From positions 1-25,642 of IMG/VR virus record IMGVR_UViG_3300009506_000903: a DNA stretch of 25,642 nucleotides; one strand, written 5' to 3'. The position numbers and the translations under genes are program-made. The notes under the pieces were generated by a model, which was not told the origin of the DNA, made no database searches, and was given only the letters and a program-made list of their open reading frames with translations. This stretch comes from a virus. Below are positions 1,622 through 7,923 of this stretch, piece after piece. Position 1 is the stretch's first letter; the number at the start of each line of letters is the position of its first letter.

Positions 1622-2177
1622 TATAGTTGATACTAGAGAACGAATGGAGTATGCACTTGAGGAGATAAGGAAGAATAGACCTCTGATTTATCTTGCTTGT
1701 GCTTATGGAAAGGTACCTAAACCACAACAGAAGAGAAGGTATCAGATAGCTAGTGAGGTAGCAGGGAATCTTCTTAAAGCTGGCAATCTTGTGTATAGTC
1801 CTTTGTCTCATAGTCATCCTATGCAGGTGTATGGTAATATGAAGTGGAGTAGTACTCAATGGCTAGAGTATGATGAATTCTATCTCGAACGATGCGATAT
1901 TCTTATGGTTCTTCAGTTAACTAATGCTTGGAGAAACTCAGAAGGTATCTTGCATGAGATACAATTCTGTCATGATTTAGGTAAGCCTATCATATTCCTC
2001 CCTTATGATGGAAATGATGAGCCTTTGCCAGTGGCAGGACCTAGAAGAATCACAACAACAGAAGCATTAGAAAAGGCAGCGCAAGCTTGGTGTACTCCTG
2101 ATACAGATGATATAGTAATGGACTCAAGACTTGCTCAAGCTTTTGCTAATATTCTTCATGAGGAGATGAATAAATGA
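1581..2177 (+). CDS. DUF1937 / nucleoside deoxyribosyltransferase-like protein
   Basis: A 198-residue protein with a Rossmann-like core resembling DUF1937 and the nucleoside 2-deoxyribosyltransferase superfamily. Visible marks are the first strand with IYLACAY near 36-42, the YSPLSHSHP stretch at 72-80, the WLEYDEFYLERCDILMV region at 94-110 and NSEGILHEI near 119-127, where the glutamate of such enzymes lies, then KPIIFLPYD. Family members cleave or exchange N-glycosidic bonds of nucleosides or nucleotides; the substrate here is unknown. The gene overlaps the end of the methyltransferase gene by 41 bases in another frame, but a GGAGG at 1567-1571 supports this start. Its neighbours are DNA-modification and nucleotide genes, so a role in the nucleotide pool or a base-modification pathway is plausible. 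Confidence 0.75.
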   Translation: MNDSQRMQHQMMGSIVDTRERMEYALEEIRKNRPLIYLACAYGKVPKPQQKRRYQIASEVAGNLLKAGNLVYSPLSHSHPMQVYGNMKWSSTQWLEYDEFYLERCDILMVLQLTNAWRNSEGILHEIQFCHDLGKPIIFLPYDGNDEPLPVAGPRRITTTEALEKAAQAWCTPDTDDIVMDSRLAQAFANILHEEMNK

Positions 2178-3184
2178 GTTTCTTACCTTCTCAAACCTCA
2201 CGTGAAGTTCCTGCTGATGGCGACCCGAATAGTCTCATAGCCATAGTAGGTGAAGCCCCTGGCGCGTTTGAGGTTAACTCTGGAAAGCCCTTTGTAGGCC
2301 CTGCTGGTAGAGTGCTTGAGCAGTGTCTGCATGGGGCTGGTCTAATCAGGGGTGAGCTATATATAACTAATCTTATCAAGTATAAGATAAAGTCTATCGA
2401 CACTTATTATAATGAGAGACGAAAGGCTTTAACTGACCTTGGGCAGAAACATGCTGAACTCTTATGGGATGAGTTAGCAGATGTAAAGGCTAATATCATT
2501 GTACCTCTAGGTAATCCAGCACTGGCTGCACTCACTGGTCAAGGTGGTATTATGAGAAGGAGAGGCTATATAGCTGAGTCTCCGTATCTGCGACGAAAGA
2601 TACTTCCTACCATCCATCCTGCTGCAGCCATCCGAGGCAACTACTTATATAGACATTATATAACTGCCGACCTTAGGAAGGCAAAGGCTAACTCTGATAC
2701 CTCTGAGATTGTGTGGCCTGAAGTTGAGATACATATTCCTAAAAACTATTGGGATGCAGTACACTGGCTGAAGTGGCTCAAGCAGCAACCTGCATTATCC
2801 ATAGACATTGAAGTAATGAACTTTGAAGTATCCTGTATAGGCTTCTGCTGGGAAGATAATAAGGCAGTTGTAATCCCTATGTATGGCGCTGCTTTATGGA
2901 CGGAGGAAGAGGAGGTTGGCCTGTGGTCTCTCATTGCTGCTATCCTTGAAGACCCTGAAATAGCAAAGACTGGACAGAACTTCATCTTCGATATGCAGTT
3001 CCTCGCTCAGCGCAACAACATAATAACTCGTGGTCACATAGATGATACTATGATTAAGGCCAGTATTCAATATCCTGACTTCCCTAAATCGCTGGAGTTC
3101 CTTGTAAGTGTCCATTGTAATAGACCATACTGGAAGGACATGGTTCAGTGGAAGGGAGCGGACTTAGTTAAGAAGGAGAGTTGA
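2174..3184 (+). CDS. UDG-like domain fused to the N-terminal part of a 3'-5' exonuclease
   Basis: Residues about 20-172 form a uracil-DNA glycosylase-like domain of the family 4/SPO1-polymerase type: GEAPGAFE at 26-33, PFVGPAGRVLE at 39-49, and the HP motif in PTIHPAAAIR at 145-154. The cysteines that hold an iron-sulphur cluster in family 4 enzymes are absent; the usual KCRP after TN is KYK here. Residues about 190-330 are the start of a Pol I-type proofreading domain: ExoI DIE at 211-213 and ExoII NFIFD at 269-273. The protein stops before ExoIII, which lies at the start of the polymerase gene at 4856. In phage SPO1 a UDG-like domain, exonuclease and polymerase form one polypeptide, so this is probably the front piece of a split polymerase. 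The start follows GAGGAG at 2160-2165. Confidence 0.85.
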   Translation: MSFLPSQTSREVPADGDPNSLIAIVGEAPGAFEVNSGKPFVGPAGRVLEQCLHGAGLIRGELYITNLIKYKIKSIDTYYNERRKALTDLGQKHAELLWDELADVKANIIVPLGNPALAALTGQGGIMRRRGYIAESPYLRRKILPTIHPAAAIRGNYLYRHYITADLRKAKANSDTSEIVWPEVEIHIPKNYWDAVHWLKWLKQQPALSIDIEVMNFEVSCIGFCWEDNKAVVIPMYGAALWTEEEEVGLWSLIAAILEDPEIAKTGQNFIFDMQFLAQRNNIITRGHIDDTMIKASIQYPDFPKSLEFLVSVHCNRPYWKDMVQWKGADLVKKES

Positions 3185-3185
3185 T

Positions 3186-3485
3186 ATGGACTTTATAGAG
3201 TTTCAAAAGGTAGCTGGAGAATGGGCAGAAAGAACATTTCCAAAGTCTACTACAGCCAGCGTGCTTGCTCACATGGAAGAAGAAATGTTTGAACTTAAAC
3301 TTGCAGAGAAGTTCCATGAGCAGGCTGAAGAAGTGGCAGACATACTTCTCCTATTAATCCATTACTGTCACAAGAATAATATAAACTTATTTGGGGCAGC
3401 AAAAGTAAAGTTTAAAGAGAATCAATCTCGTAAGTGGGCAACTGAAGCAAACGAGAAAGGTTATTTCAAGCATGAGGAGGAATAA
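3186..3485 (+). CDS. MazG-like (DUF550-type) nucleotide pyrophosphohydrolase
   Basis: A 99-residue all-helical protein with the metal-binding signature of MazG-type enzymes: EExxE at 32-36 and EExxD at 48-52, then a C-terminal KVKFKENQSRKW stretch (73-84) as in DUF550 proteins. The family hydrolyses nucleoside triphosphates to monophosphate and pyrophosphate. In a phage this could remove host alarmones or unwanted dNTPs. It begins one base after the glycosylase/exonuclease stop behind AAGGAGAGTTGATATG, and its stop overlaps the helicase start as TAATG. It is the first gene of the cassette that lies between the two polymerase pieces. Substrate preference cannot be told from sequence alone. Confidence 0.8.
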   Translation: MDFIEFQKVAGEWAERTFPKSTTASVLAHMEEEMFELKLAEKFHEQAEEVADILLLLIHYCHKNNINLFGAAKVKFKENQSRKWATEANEKGYFKHEEE

Positions 3486-4630
3486 TGCAATACTCACAAG
3501 ACCAAGAGCTTGCTTTAAAGAAGATGCACGAGTGGTATAAGGCCTGCAAAGAAGGCCTTCTTACTAAGCAAGTATTTTATCTAACAGGCTGGGCAGGTAC
3601 AGGTAAGACTACCATAGCCAATGCTTTTGCAGATGAATATAAGAATAAAGGGATTAACAAAGACCGTATTGCTTACGGTTCTTTTACTGGTAAGGCTGCT
3701 CTACGAATGAGACAGGCAGGTATGCAGGGCGCTCAAACTCTTCATAGTATGATATATACTGTGGAGACAGATAGGAAAACTGGTAAGCCTGTCTTTCATC
3801 TCGACCCAAACTCCTCATTGAGGAAGGAAGACTTACTAATCCTTGATGAATGTTCTATGGTTGATAAGGAACTAGGTGAAGATGTGCTCAGCTTTAAGGT
3901 TCCAGTTCTAGTTCTTGGCGACCCAGGACAATTACCACCTATCAAAGGTACTGGATTCTTCACCAGTAGGAAGCCTGACGCTACTCTCAGCGAGGTACAT
4001 CGACAAGCCCTTGAAAATCCCATCATCAAACTGGCTACCGATATAAGAGAAGGTAAGCCAATCCAGAGGATGAATGAGCCTAATCTTAAGACCTATATAA
4101 AGTCTAATAAGTTTGATGCAATATATAAAGACTTTGACCAAATCTTATGTGGCACTAATAAGACTCGTAATCGAATCAATGATCTTGTAAGGGCATATGA
4201 AGGTTATGATGACTTAGATGTACCTCACCAAGGAGAGAGGATTATCTGCTTAAGAAATAATAGAGTGGATGGGGTCTTTAATGGGTTGATAGGAACTATG
4301 ACTAAGGGAGCTGACCCTAACGCTGACCTTCCTTTGCTTGAGTTTGTTGATGAGGAAGAAACTATCCATATGGTATATGCACATAGAGAGGGATTCATAG
4401 ATGATAAGCTCTTTAATGATATGCACTATTCTCTTAGGAAGTCTGCTAATGAATTTACCTGGGGTTATTGTGTTACAGTACATAAGTCTCAAGGTAGTCA
4501 ATGGGATTCAGTTCTCCTTGCTGATGACAACTTCCTTATATGGGACAAGCCTCAGAGAAGGAAGTGGATATACACTGCAGTAACAAGGGCCGCTGATAAG
4601 CTTGGAATTATGCTAGCAAAAGGATTATGA
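3485..4630 (+). CDS. RecD/Dda-like superfamily 1 DNA helicase
   Basis: A 381-residue single-polypeptide SF1B-type helicase. Walker A is GWAGTGKTT at 35-43, Walker B DECS at 121-124, motif III GDPGQLPP at 145-152, motif V TVHKSQGSQWDSV in the C-terminal quarter, and motif VI YTAVTRA near the end. The size and motif spacing match phage T4 Dda and RecD-like helicases, which unwind 5' to 3'. It probably acts in replication start, fork progress or recombination. It lies between the two pieces of the DNA polymerase and is coupled to its neighbours: it starts in the TAATG junction with the MazG gene behind GAGGAGG, and ends inside the start of the next small gene. All helicase motifs look intact. 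Confidence 0.92.
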   Translation: MQYSQDQELALKKMHEWYKACKEGLLTKQVFYLTGWAGTGKTTIANAFADEYKNKGINKDRIAYGSFTGKAALRMRQAGMQGAQTLHSMIYTVETDRKTGKPVFHLDPNSSLRKEDLLILDECSMVDKELGEDVLSFKVPVLVLGDPGQLPPIKGTGFFTSRKPDATLSEVHRQALENPIIKLATDIREGKPIQRMNEPNLKTYIKSNKFDAIYKDFDQILCGTNKTRNRINDLVRAYEGYDDLDVPHQGERIICLRNNRVDGVFNGLIGTMTKGADPNADLPLLEFVDEEETIHMVYAHREGFIDDKLFNDMHYSLRKSANEFTWGYCVTVHKSQGSQWDSVLLADDNFLIWDKPQRRKWIYTAVTRAADKLGIMLAKGL

Positions 4631-4632
4631 TT

Positions 4633-4863
4633 ATGAAAGTTATTGATAGTTACTCAGGAAAAGATTTTGACGTAACTTTTCCAGATTTAATACGAAGAGC
4701 TGTATCATATAATACTTCTCTTTGTTCAGGGCATTTAGAAGTCTTAGCCGCTGCCCAAGAAACACTTATAGATATCATATGCCACTTTACTAAATATTTA
4801 AGTGAGGAGGATATGGTAGAGTTTATGAAAGATATAACCACAGGATACTATCTAGATGAGTGA
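4633..4863 (+). CDS. Small hypothetical protein
   Basis: I do not recognise this 76-residue acidic protein. It has a short N-terminal beta-like stretch (KVIDSYSGKDFDVTF) followed by mostly helical sequence, with two cysteines and no membrane segment. Two starts are possible, ATG at 4627 and ATG at 4633; the AGGA at 4621-4624 is only 2 bases from the first but 8 from the second, so 4633 is preferred. The gene overlaps both the helicase stop, if 4627 is used, and the polymerase start (ATG at 4856, stop at 4861-4863). Its place between helicase and polymerase suggests a replication accessory role, which is inference only. Confidence 0.6.
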   Translation: MKVIDSYSGKDFDVTFPDLIRRAVSYNTSLCSGHLEVLAAAQETLIDIICHFTKYLSEEDMVEFMKDITTGYYLDE

Positions 4864-6460
4864 ATTTACTGATACAGTCCTCGAGTACAACGCCTTCGAC
4901 GTGGTTAATACTCTTGAGGTAAGTAAGGAACTTGAATCTGGCATGGATGCTGACTATCAAGCGACCTATGATTTCACTGAGCGTCTTCTTGAACCTCTCA
5001 TGTTCATGATGAGTAGAGGGGTTGCAGTAGACATGGATGAACTTCAGATTGTTAAGGAAGGCACTATTAAGAAGGCTCAAGCTAAAAGGGAGAAGTTAAA
5101 TGAACTGGCTGAACGAGAGCTTAACCCTAATTCCCCTGCCCAGCTTAGACAGTACTTCTATGTGGAGAAGGGTATCCAACCGTACACGAAAAGGAACGCA
5201 AAGGGTAGTAGTAGCATTACCTGCGATGATAAAGCTCTTCAGCGTATCGCCAGAGGCACTGCTACTCGTAGAGGATTACCTGAAGCGAAACTCATACAAG
5301 AAATTAGAGCTCTCGAGAAACTCCATGGAACATACTTGGACATTGCTTTTGACCAGGACAGACGGTTCCGTTGTAGCTATAATCCAAGAGGAACAAAGTT
5401 CGGGCGACTCAGTTCCTCAAAGACTATTTTTGAGACTGGCATGAATATGCAGAATCTACCTCATGTCTTTAAGAAATTCCTTGTAGCAGACCCAGGGTAT
5501 ATGCTATGGGAGATTGATAAGGCTAAGGCAGAGTGGGTAGTCGTTGCTTATGTCTCAGGTGACGCTAATATGATTAAGGTTATAGAGGAAGGTCTCGACC
5601 CTCATATCCATACTGCTCACCTTATGACCGGCCTACCCAAGGAATTGATAGAGGAAGAGTCTAAGTTAGTAGGACATCTGACTGACCCACAGGAAGTAGG
5701 TGAGATAAGGAATAAGATGCGGCAGGCCTCCTTTGCTGTAGCAAATGCTTTTGAGGCCGCCGACTTTCTTCCTCGCACTATGAGTATAAGGCAATGTGGT
5801 AAGAAATCCAATCATGGTCTAAACTATGATGAGGGATATAGAACATTTGCCCTCACCAATGAGATGCTTGAAGCTGAAGCTAAGAAGGTTATCCAACTCT
5901 ATAAGTACAAGGCCTACCCCGGAATTCCTATCTGGCATAGGTCTATTCAAGAGCAGCTCCGTCATGATAGGACCTTATACAACTGCTTCGGAAGGAAGTA
6001 TAAGTTCCTGGGCAGATGGGATGATGACCTATTCAAGGCTGCCTATGCTTATATTCCACAGAGCTCTGTTGCGGATTTAGTGAATCATGGGATTATAGAT
6101 TCCTATTATGACCGAAGTGATTATATGCTACGGCAGGAGTTGCTAGGTCAGGTACATGACTCAGTGCTTGGACAGAATCCTATATCCGTAATAGAAGAAC
6201 ATGAAGGTGAAAAGGATATCTATAAGATGTATACTAAAGATATTCATCTAAACTCTATAGATATGGCAAAGTCTATGCAAGTAACTGGACAGTACATGAA
6301 TCGTGAATTAGAATACGGAGGACGAAGCTTCCATATAGATAACGACGCTAAGGTCGGATTCAGTTGGGGCGATATGAAAGACGTTAAAATAGACGCTCCT
6401 ATAGAAACACTTGCACAACAAATCCTAGGAGTCTATAATGAGTTCCAGTCGGGAGCTTGA
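4856..6460 (+). CDS. Family A DNA polymerase, ExoIII motif plus polymerase domain (C-terminal piece)
   Basis: This 534-residue protein begins with the last motif of a Pol I-type proofreading domain: Y11-N-A-F-D15 matches ExoIII (YxxxD). The polymerase domain follows: GRLSS at 183-187 with MQNLP at 198-202, motif A with D221 and E226, motif B R312-K316-H320 in RQCGKKSNHGLNY, the PQSSVAD helix at 401-407 and motif C HDS at 434-436. Both catalytic aspartates (D221, D435) are kept. The motif B position that is Phe in E. coli Pol I and Tyr in T7 is His here. ExoI and ExoII are missing from this protein and lie in the 2174-3184 gene. The start overlaps the upstream stop, with AGGA 10 bases before it. 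It is the replicative polymerase by context. Confidence 0.92.
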   Translation: MSEFTDTVLEYNAFDVVNTLEVSKELESGMDADYQATYDFTERLLEPLMFMMSRGVAVDMDELQIVKEGTIKKAQAKREKLNELAERELNPNSPAQLRQYFYVEKGIQPYTKRNAKGSSSITCDDKALQRIARGTATRRGLPEAKLIQEIRALEKLHGTYLDIAFDQDRRFRCSYNPRGTKFGRLSSSKTIFETGMNMQNLPHVFKKFLVADPGYMLWEIDKAKAEWVVVAYVSGDANMIKVIEEGLDPHIHTAHLMTGLPKELIEEESKLVGHLTDPQEVGEIRNKMRQASFAVANAFEAADFLPRTMSIRQCGKKSNHGLNYDEGYRTFALTNEMLEAEAKKVIQLYKYKAYPGIPIWHRSIQEQLRHDRTLYNCFGRKYKFLGRWDDDLFKAAYAYIPQSSVADLVNHGIIDSYYDRSDYMLRQELLGQVHDSVLGQNPISVIEEHEGEKDIYKMYTKDIHLNSIDMAKSMQVTGQYMNRELEYGGRSFHIDNDAKVGFSWGDMKDVKIDAPIETLAQQILGVYNEFQSGA

Positions 6461-7640
6461 AGACTGGATAAGTGCCTATTTGAAATATACAGAGAATACT
6501 GAACCACCTATATCTTATCATACATGGACTGCTGTCTCAATGATAGCAGGAGCTTTGCAGCGAAAAGTCTACCTAAGGTGGGGCTTTGATACTATATACC
6601 CTAATATGTATGTAGTACTAATTGGGCCATCTGGTAGAGCGAGGAAAGGCACTGCAATGAATATCGGGAAGGATATTCTGAAAGATATAGGAATAAGTAT
6701 GACCTCTGAAAGTATTACTCGTGAGGCTCTTATTCGGGATATGAAGGAGGCTATCAGCAACTTTACTGATGCCACTACAGGAAAGATTAGGTATCATTGT
6801 TCATTCACTGCATTATCGGAGGAGTTATCAGTCTTCTTAGGCCAGAATGATATAAGGTTCTTAGCAGACTTAACTGATTGGTATGACTCAAGAGATAGTT
6901 GGACTTATCGTACAAAAGGTTCTGGAACAGACAAGATTGAGGGCGTATGTTTCAACATACTTGGAGCTACGGCTCCTGACTGGCTGCAATCAATTCTACC
7001 TCAGGAGGCTGTCGGAGGAGGCTTCACATCTAGAATTATTTTCGTCGTTGAGGAAACTAAAGGAAAGACAGTACCAGAACCGATATATTCAGACACTGAG
7101 CATGACCTCAGACAAAAGCTCCGCAGAGACTTGGAGAAGATTGCGACTCTTACGGGCGAGATTACCTTTGAGGCACAAGCTAAGGATGCCTACATTGCAT
7201 GGTACGAGGCGCATGAGGAGGCCATTGCCAAAGGTAAACCGCCTATTGAAGATACAAGATTTGCCGGGTACTTGGATAGACGAGCTACACATTTGAGGAA
7301 GTTAGCAATGGTAATGTCTGCAAGTAGGGGTACAGACAGACTTATAACATTACCAGATATTGAACGTGCAGATAAGGTACTCAAACAAGCTGAGGCTAAG
7401 ATGCACAAGACCTTTGGTGGGTTAGGGAGCAGTCCATACTCAGCAATTACTGATAAGGTTATTAACTATGTTAAGAACAAGCATGAAGTTAAGCGGTCAG
7501 AAGTATTGAGACAATTCTATAGAGACCTTGACCCATCAATACTAGATGTGATAGAGGCTACTATGAGTCAGATGAAGATTGTTAAAGTGATTAGAGATAT
7601 GCAGAACCACGATACTACCTATGAATATAAAGGGAGCTAA
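6438..7640 (+). CDS. DUF3987-like P-loop ATPase, putative replicative helicase
   Basis: A 400-residue protein resembling the DUF3987-type ATPases that phages carry beside DNA polymerase. The N-terminal PPISYHTWTAVSMIAGAL and the P-loop GPSGRARKGTA at 63-73 are visible; the P-loop ends KGT where a standard Walker A has GKT. The middle has ILGATAPDWLQSILP followed by GGGFTSRIIFVVEE, typical of these proteins. The last 70 residues look like a winged helix (KVINYVKNKHEVKRSEVLRQ), which may bind DNA. It probably serves as the fork helicase, but no primase domain is seen. The start lies 23 bases inside the polymerase gene, behind AGGAG at 6427. Confidence 0.7.
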   Translation: MSSSRELEDWISAYLKYTENTEPPISYHTWTAVSMIAGALQRKVYLRWGFDTIYPNMYVVLIGPSGRARKGTAMNIGKDILKDIGISMTSESITREALIRDMKEAISNFTDATTGKIRYHCSFTALSEELSVFLGQNDIRFLADLTDWYDSRDSWTYRTKGSGTDKIEGVCFNILGATAPDWLQSILPQEAVGGGFTSRIIFVVEETKGKTVPEPIYSDTEHDLRQKLRRDLEKIATLTGEITFEAQAKDAYIAWYEAHEEAIAKGKPPIEDTRFAGYLDRRATHLRKLAMVMSASRGTDRLITLPDIERADKVLKQAEAKMHKTFGGLGSSPYSAITDKVINYVKNKHEVKRSEVLRQFYRDLDPSILDVIEATMSQMKIVKVIRDMQNHDTTYEYKGS

Positions 7641-7641
7641 C

Positions 7642-7923
7642 ATGAATGGCAGAACAGCGAAAATACTACGAAGACTTGCTCAACGCAATACAAAGGGAAA
7701 GCCCTATGCGCGCTATCTTCAAAGGCAGACAACAGGGCAGATTATTCTTGACCCGCTGAGTTGTACTAAGGGATGGTATAGACAAATTAAGAAAGGACTC
7801 AAAATGAGAGACCCTTTCATGCTCAAGGCTATGGAAGTTGAGAAGGCTACTATAGAAATTGAGCGTTTAAGAAATGTCCGATTGTCGGACACATCTGAAT
7901 CGGAGGTGACTAGTGGACAGTAA
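7642..7923 (+). CDS. Small basic hypothetical protein, possible DNA-binding
   Basis: I do not recognise this protein of 93 residues. It is strongly basic in its first half (KILRRLAQRNTKGKPYARYL) and has a stretch, TKGWYRQIKKGLKMRDP, that faintly resembles the recognition helix of small helix-turn-helix proteins; this is weak. A longer form starting at 7621 exists, but AGGGAG at 7631-7636 lies 5 bases before the ATG at 7642, so that start is preferred. The 3' end of the gene contains a perfect 17-bp inverted repeat (7875-7891) found again upstream of a late gene. A regulator role would fit but is speculation. Confidence 0.55.
   Translation: MNGRTAKILRRLAQRNTKGKPYARYLQRQTTGQIILDPLSCTKGWYRQIKKGLKMRDPFMLKAMEVEKATIEIERLRNVRLSDTSESEVTSGQ
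7875..7891 (+). promoter_or_regulatory. Perfect inverted repeat upstream of the 7913 gene
   Basis: TGTCCGA, three bases (TTG), then TCGGACA: a perfect 7+3+7 dyad. It lies inside the 3' end of the preceding gene and 21 bases before the GTG start at 7913. The same dyad with a different centre (ACG) occurs at 20984-21000 and a degenerate form at 14063-14081, each before a ribosome binding site. It could be an operator for a dimeric regulator or an RNA hairpin in the leader. No T-tract follows, so it is not an intrinsic terminator. Confidence 0.6.

Follow-up and report, generated by a model that had tools for sequence, protein, structure and literature searches.

The window analysed here, a 25,642-nt stretch of viral DNA from IMG/VR record IMGVR_UViG_3300009506_000903, encodes a family A DNA polymerase (PolA) in two genes, with a uracil-DNA glycosylase (UDG)-like domain at its N terminus and a 3′-5′ exonuclease that is cut by the gene boundary. 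In textbook PolA enzymes, proofreading and synthesis are carried out in one chain. The two genes (referred to as the N and C genes, and their products as the N and C pieces) and the motifs within them were located as follows:

2174-3184, plus strand: N piece, the first putative subunit (336 aa), with a UDG family-4-like domain followed by the ExoI/ExoII half of a PolA 3′-5′ exonuclease
2213-2641, plus strand: UDG-superfamily domain, N-piece residues 14-156 (profile match, E = 1.9e-22)
2804-2812, plus strand: ExoI motif DIE, N-piece residues 211-213
2978-2992, plus strand: ExoII motif NFIFD, N-piece residues 269-273
3128-3184, plus strand: new tail, YWKD...(I/V/L)K-x-(E/D/K)-(S/A/D)-stop, conserved at the C-terminal end of N pieces throughout the clade described below
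4856-6460, plus strand: C piece, the second putative subunit (534 aa), with the ExoIII helix and, after it, a family A DNA polymerase (thumb, fingers and palm)
4886-4900, plus strand: ExoIII motif YNAFD, C-piece residues 11-15
5516-5536, plus strand: polymerase motif A, DKAKAEW (C piece, D221)
5789-5827, plus strand: polymerase motif B, RQCGKKSNHGLNY (C piece)
6152-6163, plus strand: polymerase motif C, VHDS (C piece)

The DEDDy signature (DxE, Nx(2-3)(F/Y)D, Yx(3)D) was complete in the window, with two of its motifs on the N piece and the third on the C piece. The Pfam family DNA_pol_A_exo1 (PF01612) matched N-piece residues 191-316 over profile positions 6-129 of 173 only; no single continuous exonuclease domain was found, the remainder beginning in the gene 1.7 kb away. 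The C piece matched DNA_pol_A (PF00476; E = 2.2e-34, 119.5 bits against a cut-off of 34.3) and retained motifs A, B and C. Against the PHROG_17 profile the N piece covered positions 479-787 and the C piece positions 804-1246, leaving almost no profile uncovered, and because the two matches follow one another in this way the pieces are consecutive parts of one ancestral chain from which almost nothing has been lost. The N piece stops ∼15 residues past a WKD motif and the C piece begins 10 residues ahead of ExoIII. The distance from the LxFL motif to ExoIII was 29-31 residues in most fused relatives (outliers of 21 and 94) and 31-50 residues in split ones, a spacing which shows that no residues were lost at the break. 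These results agree with an earlier note on this DNA, which had placed ExoI and ExoII in the gene at 2174-3184 and ExoIII with the whole polymerase in that at 4856-6460, and had held that the pieces are complete when laid end to end and that neither has a full exonuclease site by itself. No frame error joining the two genes was found.

The catalytic residues of DxE, NxxFD and YxxxD were retained on both sides of the break in every clade member sampled. D211, E213, N269, F272 and D273 were invariant in 23 diverged split homologues of the N piece, as were the ExoIII residues Y11 and D15 in 24 diverged split homologues of the C piece and the polymerase residues D221, R312/K316/Y324 and H434-D435 in the split-homologue alignment. 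Ratios of nonsynonymous to synonymous substitution rates (dN/dS) were taken from less diverged pairs only, many pairs being saturated at synonymous sites; in these close pairs they were ∼0.03-0.07 for the ExoI/II half and ∼0.02-0.08 for the ExoIII segment, as low as those of the polymerase, indicating strong purifying selection on both exonuclease halves. The UDG-like domain is diverged. Its similarity to family 4 UDG (NF040953, 81.3 bits) fell far below the equivalog cut-off of 250, the GEAPG motif is gone from many relatives, and at the iron-sulfur positions of the NVVKC and CGHF motifs (PDB 1l9g) there was no cysteine in the split-clade profile or in the window. It stays under purifying selection all the same, and is probably a non-catalytic domain that senses DNA or uracil.

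It could be argued that the two products act apart. On that view the N piece would bind DNA as a UDG-like protein whose half-exonuclease is dead, and the C piece would be a polymerase naturally deficient in exonuclease. Divergence of the UDG domain, with loss of GEAPG in many relatives and of the family 4 iron-sulfur cysteine, would fit such a separation, as would the DnaQ/RNase T-like exonuclease (PF00929) encoded ∼2.5-2.9 kb upstream of the N gene in two of 15 relatives' contigs (L029 and L032). However, a dead half-domain should decay, whereas low dN/dS was seen in both halves and the ExoI, ExoII and ExoIII residues were invariant on both pieces even in strongly diverged pairs. Moreover, the remaining 13 of the 15 contigs lacked any other DnaQ-like exonuclease. 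PF01612 searches returned one PolA-type exonuclease per phage contig, always the truncated one (15 contigs, 37-49 kb), with the ExoIII remainder matched separately in L017 (profile positions 143-173), and no second PolA-type exonuclease was found across these contigs. Separate action of the two products is therefore improbable.

To place the split among its relatives, proteins in phage records were searched, and scans of IMG/VR and GTDB genome contigs yielded ∼120 loci; because the window proteins and their relatives served as seeds for the scans, locus counts do not equal frequencies in nature. After classification by domain profiles and removal of identical pairs, 85 loci were classified, comprising 38 split within the exonuclease (including the window and the isolated Caulobacter phage Kuura), 17 split before motif A, 29 fused and one other. 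The break between ExoII and ExoIII was common to the window and 36 further non-identical loci from IMG/VR or metagenome-assembled genomes, all belonging to one clade. In a large tree built without the UDG domain, these 37 loci formed a single clade (Shimodaira-Hasegawa-like approximate likelihood ratio test 82, rising to 98 for 35 of them), and in a smaller, more carefully built tree the exonuclease-split clade received support of 100/97. Fused forms were placed around and below both this clade and a second one formed by 14 of the motif-A-split loci (support 100), and no fused (re-fused) member was found among the 37 loci of the exonuclease-split clade. Since 36 other members of the clade, none of them identical, have the break too, the split is neither chance nor sequencing error; it is an old and stable arrangement, not a recent accident. 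Mis-assembly of the contig or decay of a pseudogene might be suspected in a metagenomic contig of unknown host, but metagenomes independent of one another showed the same structure, relatives keep the DUF3987 gene downstream, and both open reading frames are intact and under purifying selection in relatives, so that an artefact of this kind has a negligible chance of being the explanation.

Unsplit forms included those of Desulfofustis phage LS06 (826 aa), Microcystis phage Mel-JY34 and Manatee Spring phage MW202489, among others, and in OP947158 UDG, exonuclease and polymerase are encoded as one 826-aa coding sequence; the 29 fused loci bear out the suggestion that the pair was formerly a single gene. 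Several unsplit forms matched the window in their neighbourhood, with ParB/methyltransferase genes upstream and DUF3987 or primase genes downstream. The corresponding gene of the window was:

6438-7640, plus strand: DUF3987/primase-like gene, directly downstream of the C gene (profile matches)

Fused relatives likewise have a gene of this type 3′ of the polymerase, so that outside the gap the order of genes has been kept. Upstream, positions 269-1621 of the window encode a ParB N-terminal domain fused to an N6/N4 DNA methyltransferase, and ParB-like or methyltransferase-annotated genes were found upstream of the polymerase in several relatives. Phage Kuura also has the ExoII/ExoIII break, with two different small genes in its gap. 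It fell outside the main split clade, and constraining it to lie inside was not rejected (approximately unbiased test, P = 0.10); a second, separate origin of the break in Kuura is thus likely but not proven. Breaks at other places were found in Vibrio phage VS-ABTNL-3 and MW202554.

In the sister clade, the polymerase gene is broken just before motif A (for example L042:4999-6633 and 6990-7910). The motif-A-split loci were L042, L049, L051, L067, L070, L075-L079, L085, L087, L102, L110, L117 and L119 (and Vibrio phage L006), with gaps of 182 to 1,519 nt, several of them holding endolysin genes (glycosyl hydrolase family 25, peptidase M15). Inteins of ∼300 aa with LAGLIDADG-like blocks, not recognized by Pfam, interrupt polymerase motif B (GKK^SNHG) at L128:5968-8445, L129:6001-8472 and L103:5578-8901, two of these loci being exonuclease-split and one fused.

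The 1,671-nt gap between the N and C genes of the window holds three intact genes:

3186-3485, plus strand: MazG-like dATP/dGTP pyrophosphohydrolase (MazG/PRA-PH-like, PF04447, E = 5e-6)
3485-4630, plus strand: Dda-like superfamily 1 helicase (PHROG_325, E = 3e-95)
4627-4863, plus strand: 78-aa orphan, the last 8 nt of which overlap the start of the polymerase gene

The three form a tight, co-directional, operon-like array in which the helicase gene starts on the last base of the MazG gene. No repeat of ≥9 nt is shared by the cassette borders. The orphan had no match among phage collection proteins. Among the split loci the window has the longest gap, 1,671 nt, and at the other extreme the two genes overlap (a gap of −28 nt); the range was −28 to 946 nt in the 36 other clade loci, and six of the 38 split loci had no gap at all (0 to −28 nt). 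In L012, the closest relative having both pieces, the break is identical and the gap measures 164 nt, and in L024 one in-frame TAG alone parts the N and C pieces. In the other clade loci the gap genes differ or are absent. Among the relatives compared, a MazG homologue was found in the gap of L066 only, and a strong helicase homologue in L026 only, where it lies upstream of the N gene. These distributions bear on the earlier proposal that an intact gene was recently broken by insertion of a cassette of MazG, helicase and the small gene. The cassette does sit between the two pieces in the window, but 36 other clade loci share the break, and MazG and the helicase are missing from nearly all of them, so the cassette is not the cause of the split; together with the short gap of L012 and the loci without a gap, this leaves recent breakage by the cassette a very remote prospect and that proposal is not upheld. 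The MazG/helicase cassette is a late passenger that entered a pre-existing gap.

We also considered that the pieces might be rejoined after transcription or translation, through an intron, a split intein, frameshifting or stop read-through. Inteins are known in this polymerase family (at motif B), and the L024 pieces share a frame with a single TAG between them, both of which speak for rejoining. Against this, Rfam searches of the window and of ten relatives returned no intron scoring above the gathering cut-offs (intron types unknown to Rfam may escape), and the three genes in the window gap are complete and arranged like an operon. The absence of intein and intron signals and of border repeats had been remarked on in the earlier note. 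Specific candidates were rejected in turn: a split intein at the break, where the N piece ends ∼15 residues past WKD, leaving no room for intein halves, and inteins occur only at motif B (L128, L129, L103); a programmed frameshift, no slippery heptamer being present at the overlapping junctions of L021, L038, L053, L069 and L123; and recoding of TAG in L024, where TAG is the ordinary stop of other genes. Rejoining is accordingly highly unlikely.

A Pfam profile search found no homing endonuclease in the window gap, but HNH_3 endonuclease genes lie in the gaps of L025, L037 and L126, and a gap open reading frame of L016 (L016:2089-2559) appeared HNH-like by eye without a Pfam match. Three of the five HNH_3 genes found in 27 contigs (1.0 Mb) sit in the gap, which makes up 1.1% of that DNA (chance about 1e-5). 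The gap is an insertion hot spot, repeatedly entered by HNH homing endonucleases and cargo genes. Proteins of 46-67 aa ending in C-x(2-4)-C recur in the gap throughout one large subclade (L016, L017, L023, L029-L032, L034-L036, L041, L132, L133); they could be a third partner or a passenger. At the 3′ end of the N gene, the new tail is kept through the clade in a fixed layout, WKD followed by ∼12 residues and then (I/V/L)K-x-(E/D)-(S/A/D)-stop, and may be a docking point, a homing target or both. In L016 the last 12 codons of the HNH-like frame (DSVKFNDIKENS) duplicate the N-gene tail and are its displaced ancestral version; the DNA of this end nearly matches the N-gene tail of the closest relative, L132 (1066-1098), and the L016 N gene itself now ends with a diverged copy of the tail. 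Such a fossil would be expected if an endonuclease element had inserted close to the N-gene 3′ end and supplied a new tail. L016 shows that endonucleases invade the gap site, and is not proof that one made the original break. By analogy with Aeh1 nrdA and mobE (described below), a homing endonuclease may have caused it.

As the two pieces of L024 lie in one frame, they were read as a single chain with the stop as a residue and modelled with AlphaFold2 (56 sequences). The joined chain was predicted with high confidence (mean predicted local distance difference test [pLDDT] 94.2; predicted template modelling score [pTM] 0.90), and the junction was its sole weak stretch besides the extreme N terminus (block mean 63). 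The ExoIII helix (residues 343-369) starts three residues after the dip at the junction. Model residues 187-821 aligned with Klenow fragment 1kfs 324-928 over 557 of 601 residues (Z 33.4, root mean square deviation 3.2), so that in this model the joined natural pair, that of a relative and not of the window, covers the whole Klenow fold. From this coverage and the dip at the junction, the break is predicted to fall in a loop and to cost no secondary-structure element. The N piece of the window, modelled alone, was confident to about residue 290 and then dropped to 79, 79, 81, 51 and 39 per ten residues (291-336), in the region whose packing partner, the ExoIII helix, is absent from this piece; the comparison is loose since protein and alignment differ.

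Taken together, the intact motifs, the selection on both halves and the predicted fold make it very likely that the window encodes an obligate two-subunit UDG-exonuclease-PolA replicase with a proofreading site assembled in trans. Subunit 1 (2174-3184) would supply the UDG-like domain together with the beta-sheet of the exonuclease that carries ExoI and ExoII, and subunit 2 (4856-6460) would start at the ExoIII helix and continue to thumb, fingers and palm; the subunits would associate, and the DEDDy two-metal proofreading site would be completed at their interface. Because the cut passes through the proofreading site, the two proteins almost certainly must join to proofread. We infer physical association of the subunits and proofreading in trans from the retained residues, selection and joined-chain model, which make the earlier suggestion that the pieces assemble into one enzyme very probably correct; the high-confidence Klenow fold of a natural split pair also speaks against pieces that do not pack. 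Several points weigh on the other side. The joined-chain model brings the pieces together by construction and was built from an alignment that includes fused relatives; the DnaQ-like exonuclease of L029 and L032 suggests that proofreading need not always rely on the split domain; and the conserved exonuclease residues could in principle serve the fold and not catalysis.

A further possibility, which we consider rather unlikely, is that the split is itself an adaptation, the C subunit being able to act alone as an enzyme deficient in exonuclease and the joining of the UDG-ExoI/II subunit, possibly via the IK-x-(E/D)-(S/A) tail, switching proofreading on, so that proofreading might be tuned by subunit dose or binding. 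Such an adaptation would predict the complete absence of re-fusion seen in the clade of 37, even where a single stop codon parts the pieces (L024).

In the polymerase domain, C-piece H320 (window 5813-5815) aligns with Taq F667 and Klenow F762, and the split clade has this histidine without exception. At this site, phage PolA enzymes are commonly typed as Phe, Tyr or Leu. Extra residues encoded at 5639-5774, before motif B, are shared only by L012 among the aligned split relatives, and ∼18 extra residues near the C-terminal end (about 6260-6340) were found in no other aligned split relative.

With a two-subunit enzyme of this kind, one could test how proofreading is coupled to synthesis simply by adding or omitting one subunit. 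It also carries a warning for annotation. The Kuura paper speaks of “a DNA polymerase” only and the Kuura N subunit is annotated as a “hypothetical protein”, and on such annotation the Kuura polymerase would look proofreading-deficient. The family is split at two sites, carries motif B inteins and has HNH genes within its gaps, and so offers a natural system for studying fragmentation of essential genes by endonucleases, and for asking how enzymes survive fragmentation by mobile endonucleases.

Our search of the open-access literature turned up no polymerase described as broken between ExoII and ExoIII (subscription papers lay outside the search), and a polymerase split inside its exonuclease active site and fixed in a clade is likely, though not certainly, new. 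Pseudomonas phage PaBG gp205 is a UDG-exonuclease-PolA fusion (PMC7412058), and both it and SPO1 gp31 share the domain order of the window (UDG-like, 3′-5′ exonuclease, polymerase) but as a single polypeptide; identity between the SPO1 group and the window was 22-24% over the matched part. The Methylophilales phages MEP401 and MEP402 have a split PolA (PMC10580990). In MEP401 the break is located just before motif A (the first gene ending in NLQNFDGEIKTLFLSRYGE and a stop, the second continuing with MILNADAKALEW), with the exonuclease whole in the first gene and no UDG domain, so that it corresponds to the site of the sister, polymerase-split clade and not to that of the window. In Aeh1, nrdA is broken by the free-standing HNH homing endonuclease gene mobE, and two polypeptides restore function (PMC2988022); the enzyme is a different one, and the window gap is without an endonuclease, HNH genes occurring only in its relatives L016, L025, L037 and L126. 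A precedent for the association of split polymerase halves is gp43A/gp43B of the T4-like Aeromonas phages 44RR and 25, in which a family B polymerase is encoded in two genes separated by untranslated sequence or a homing endonuclease, and for phage 25 the pieces co-purify and are polymerase-active (PMC2988022). There, as here, a replicative phage polymerase is encoded in two genes, but that of the window belongs to family A, has a fused UDG domain and is broken between ExoII and ExoIII, a break that has become fixed in its clade (at least 37 loci).

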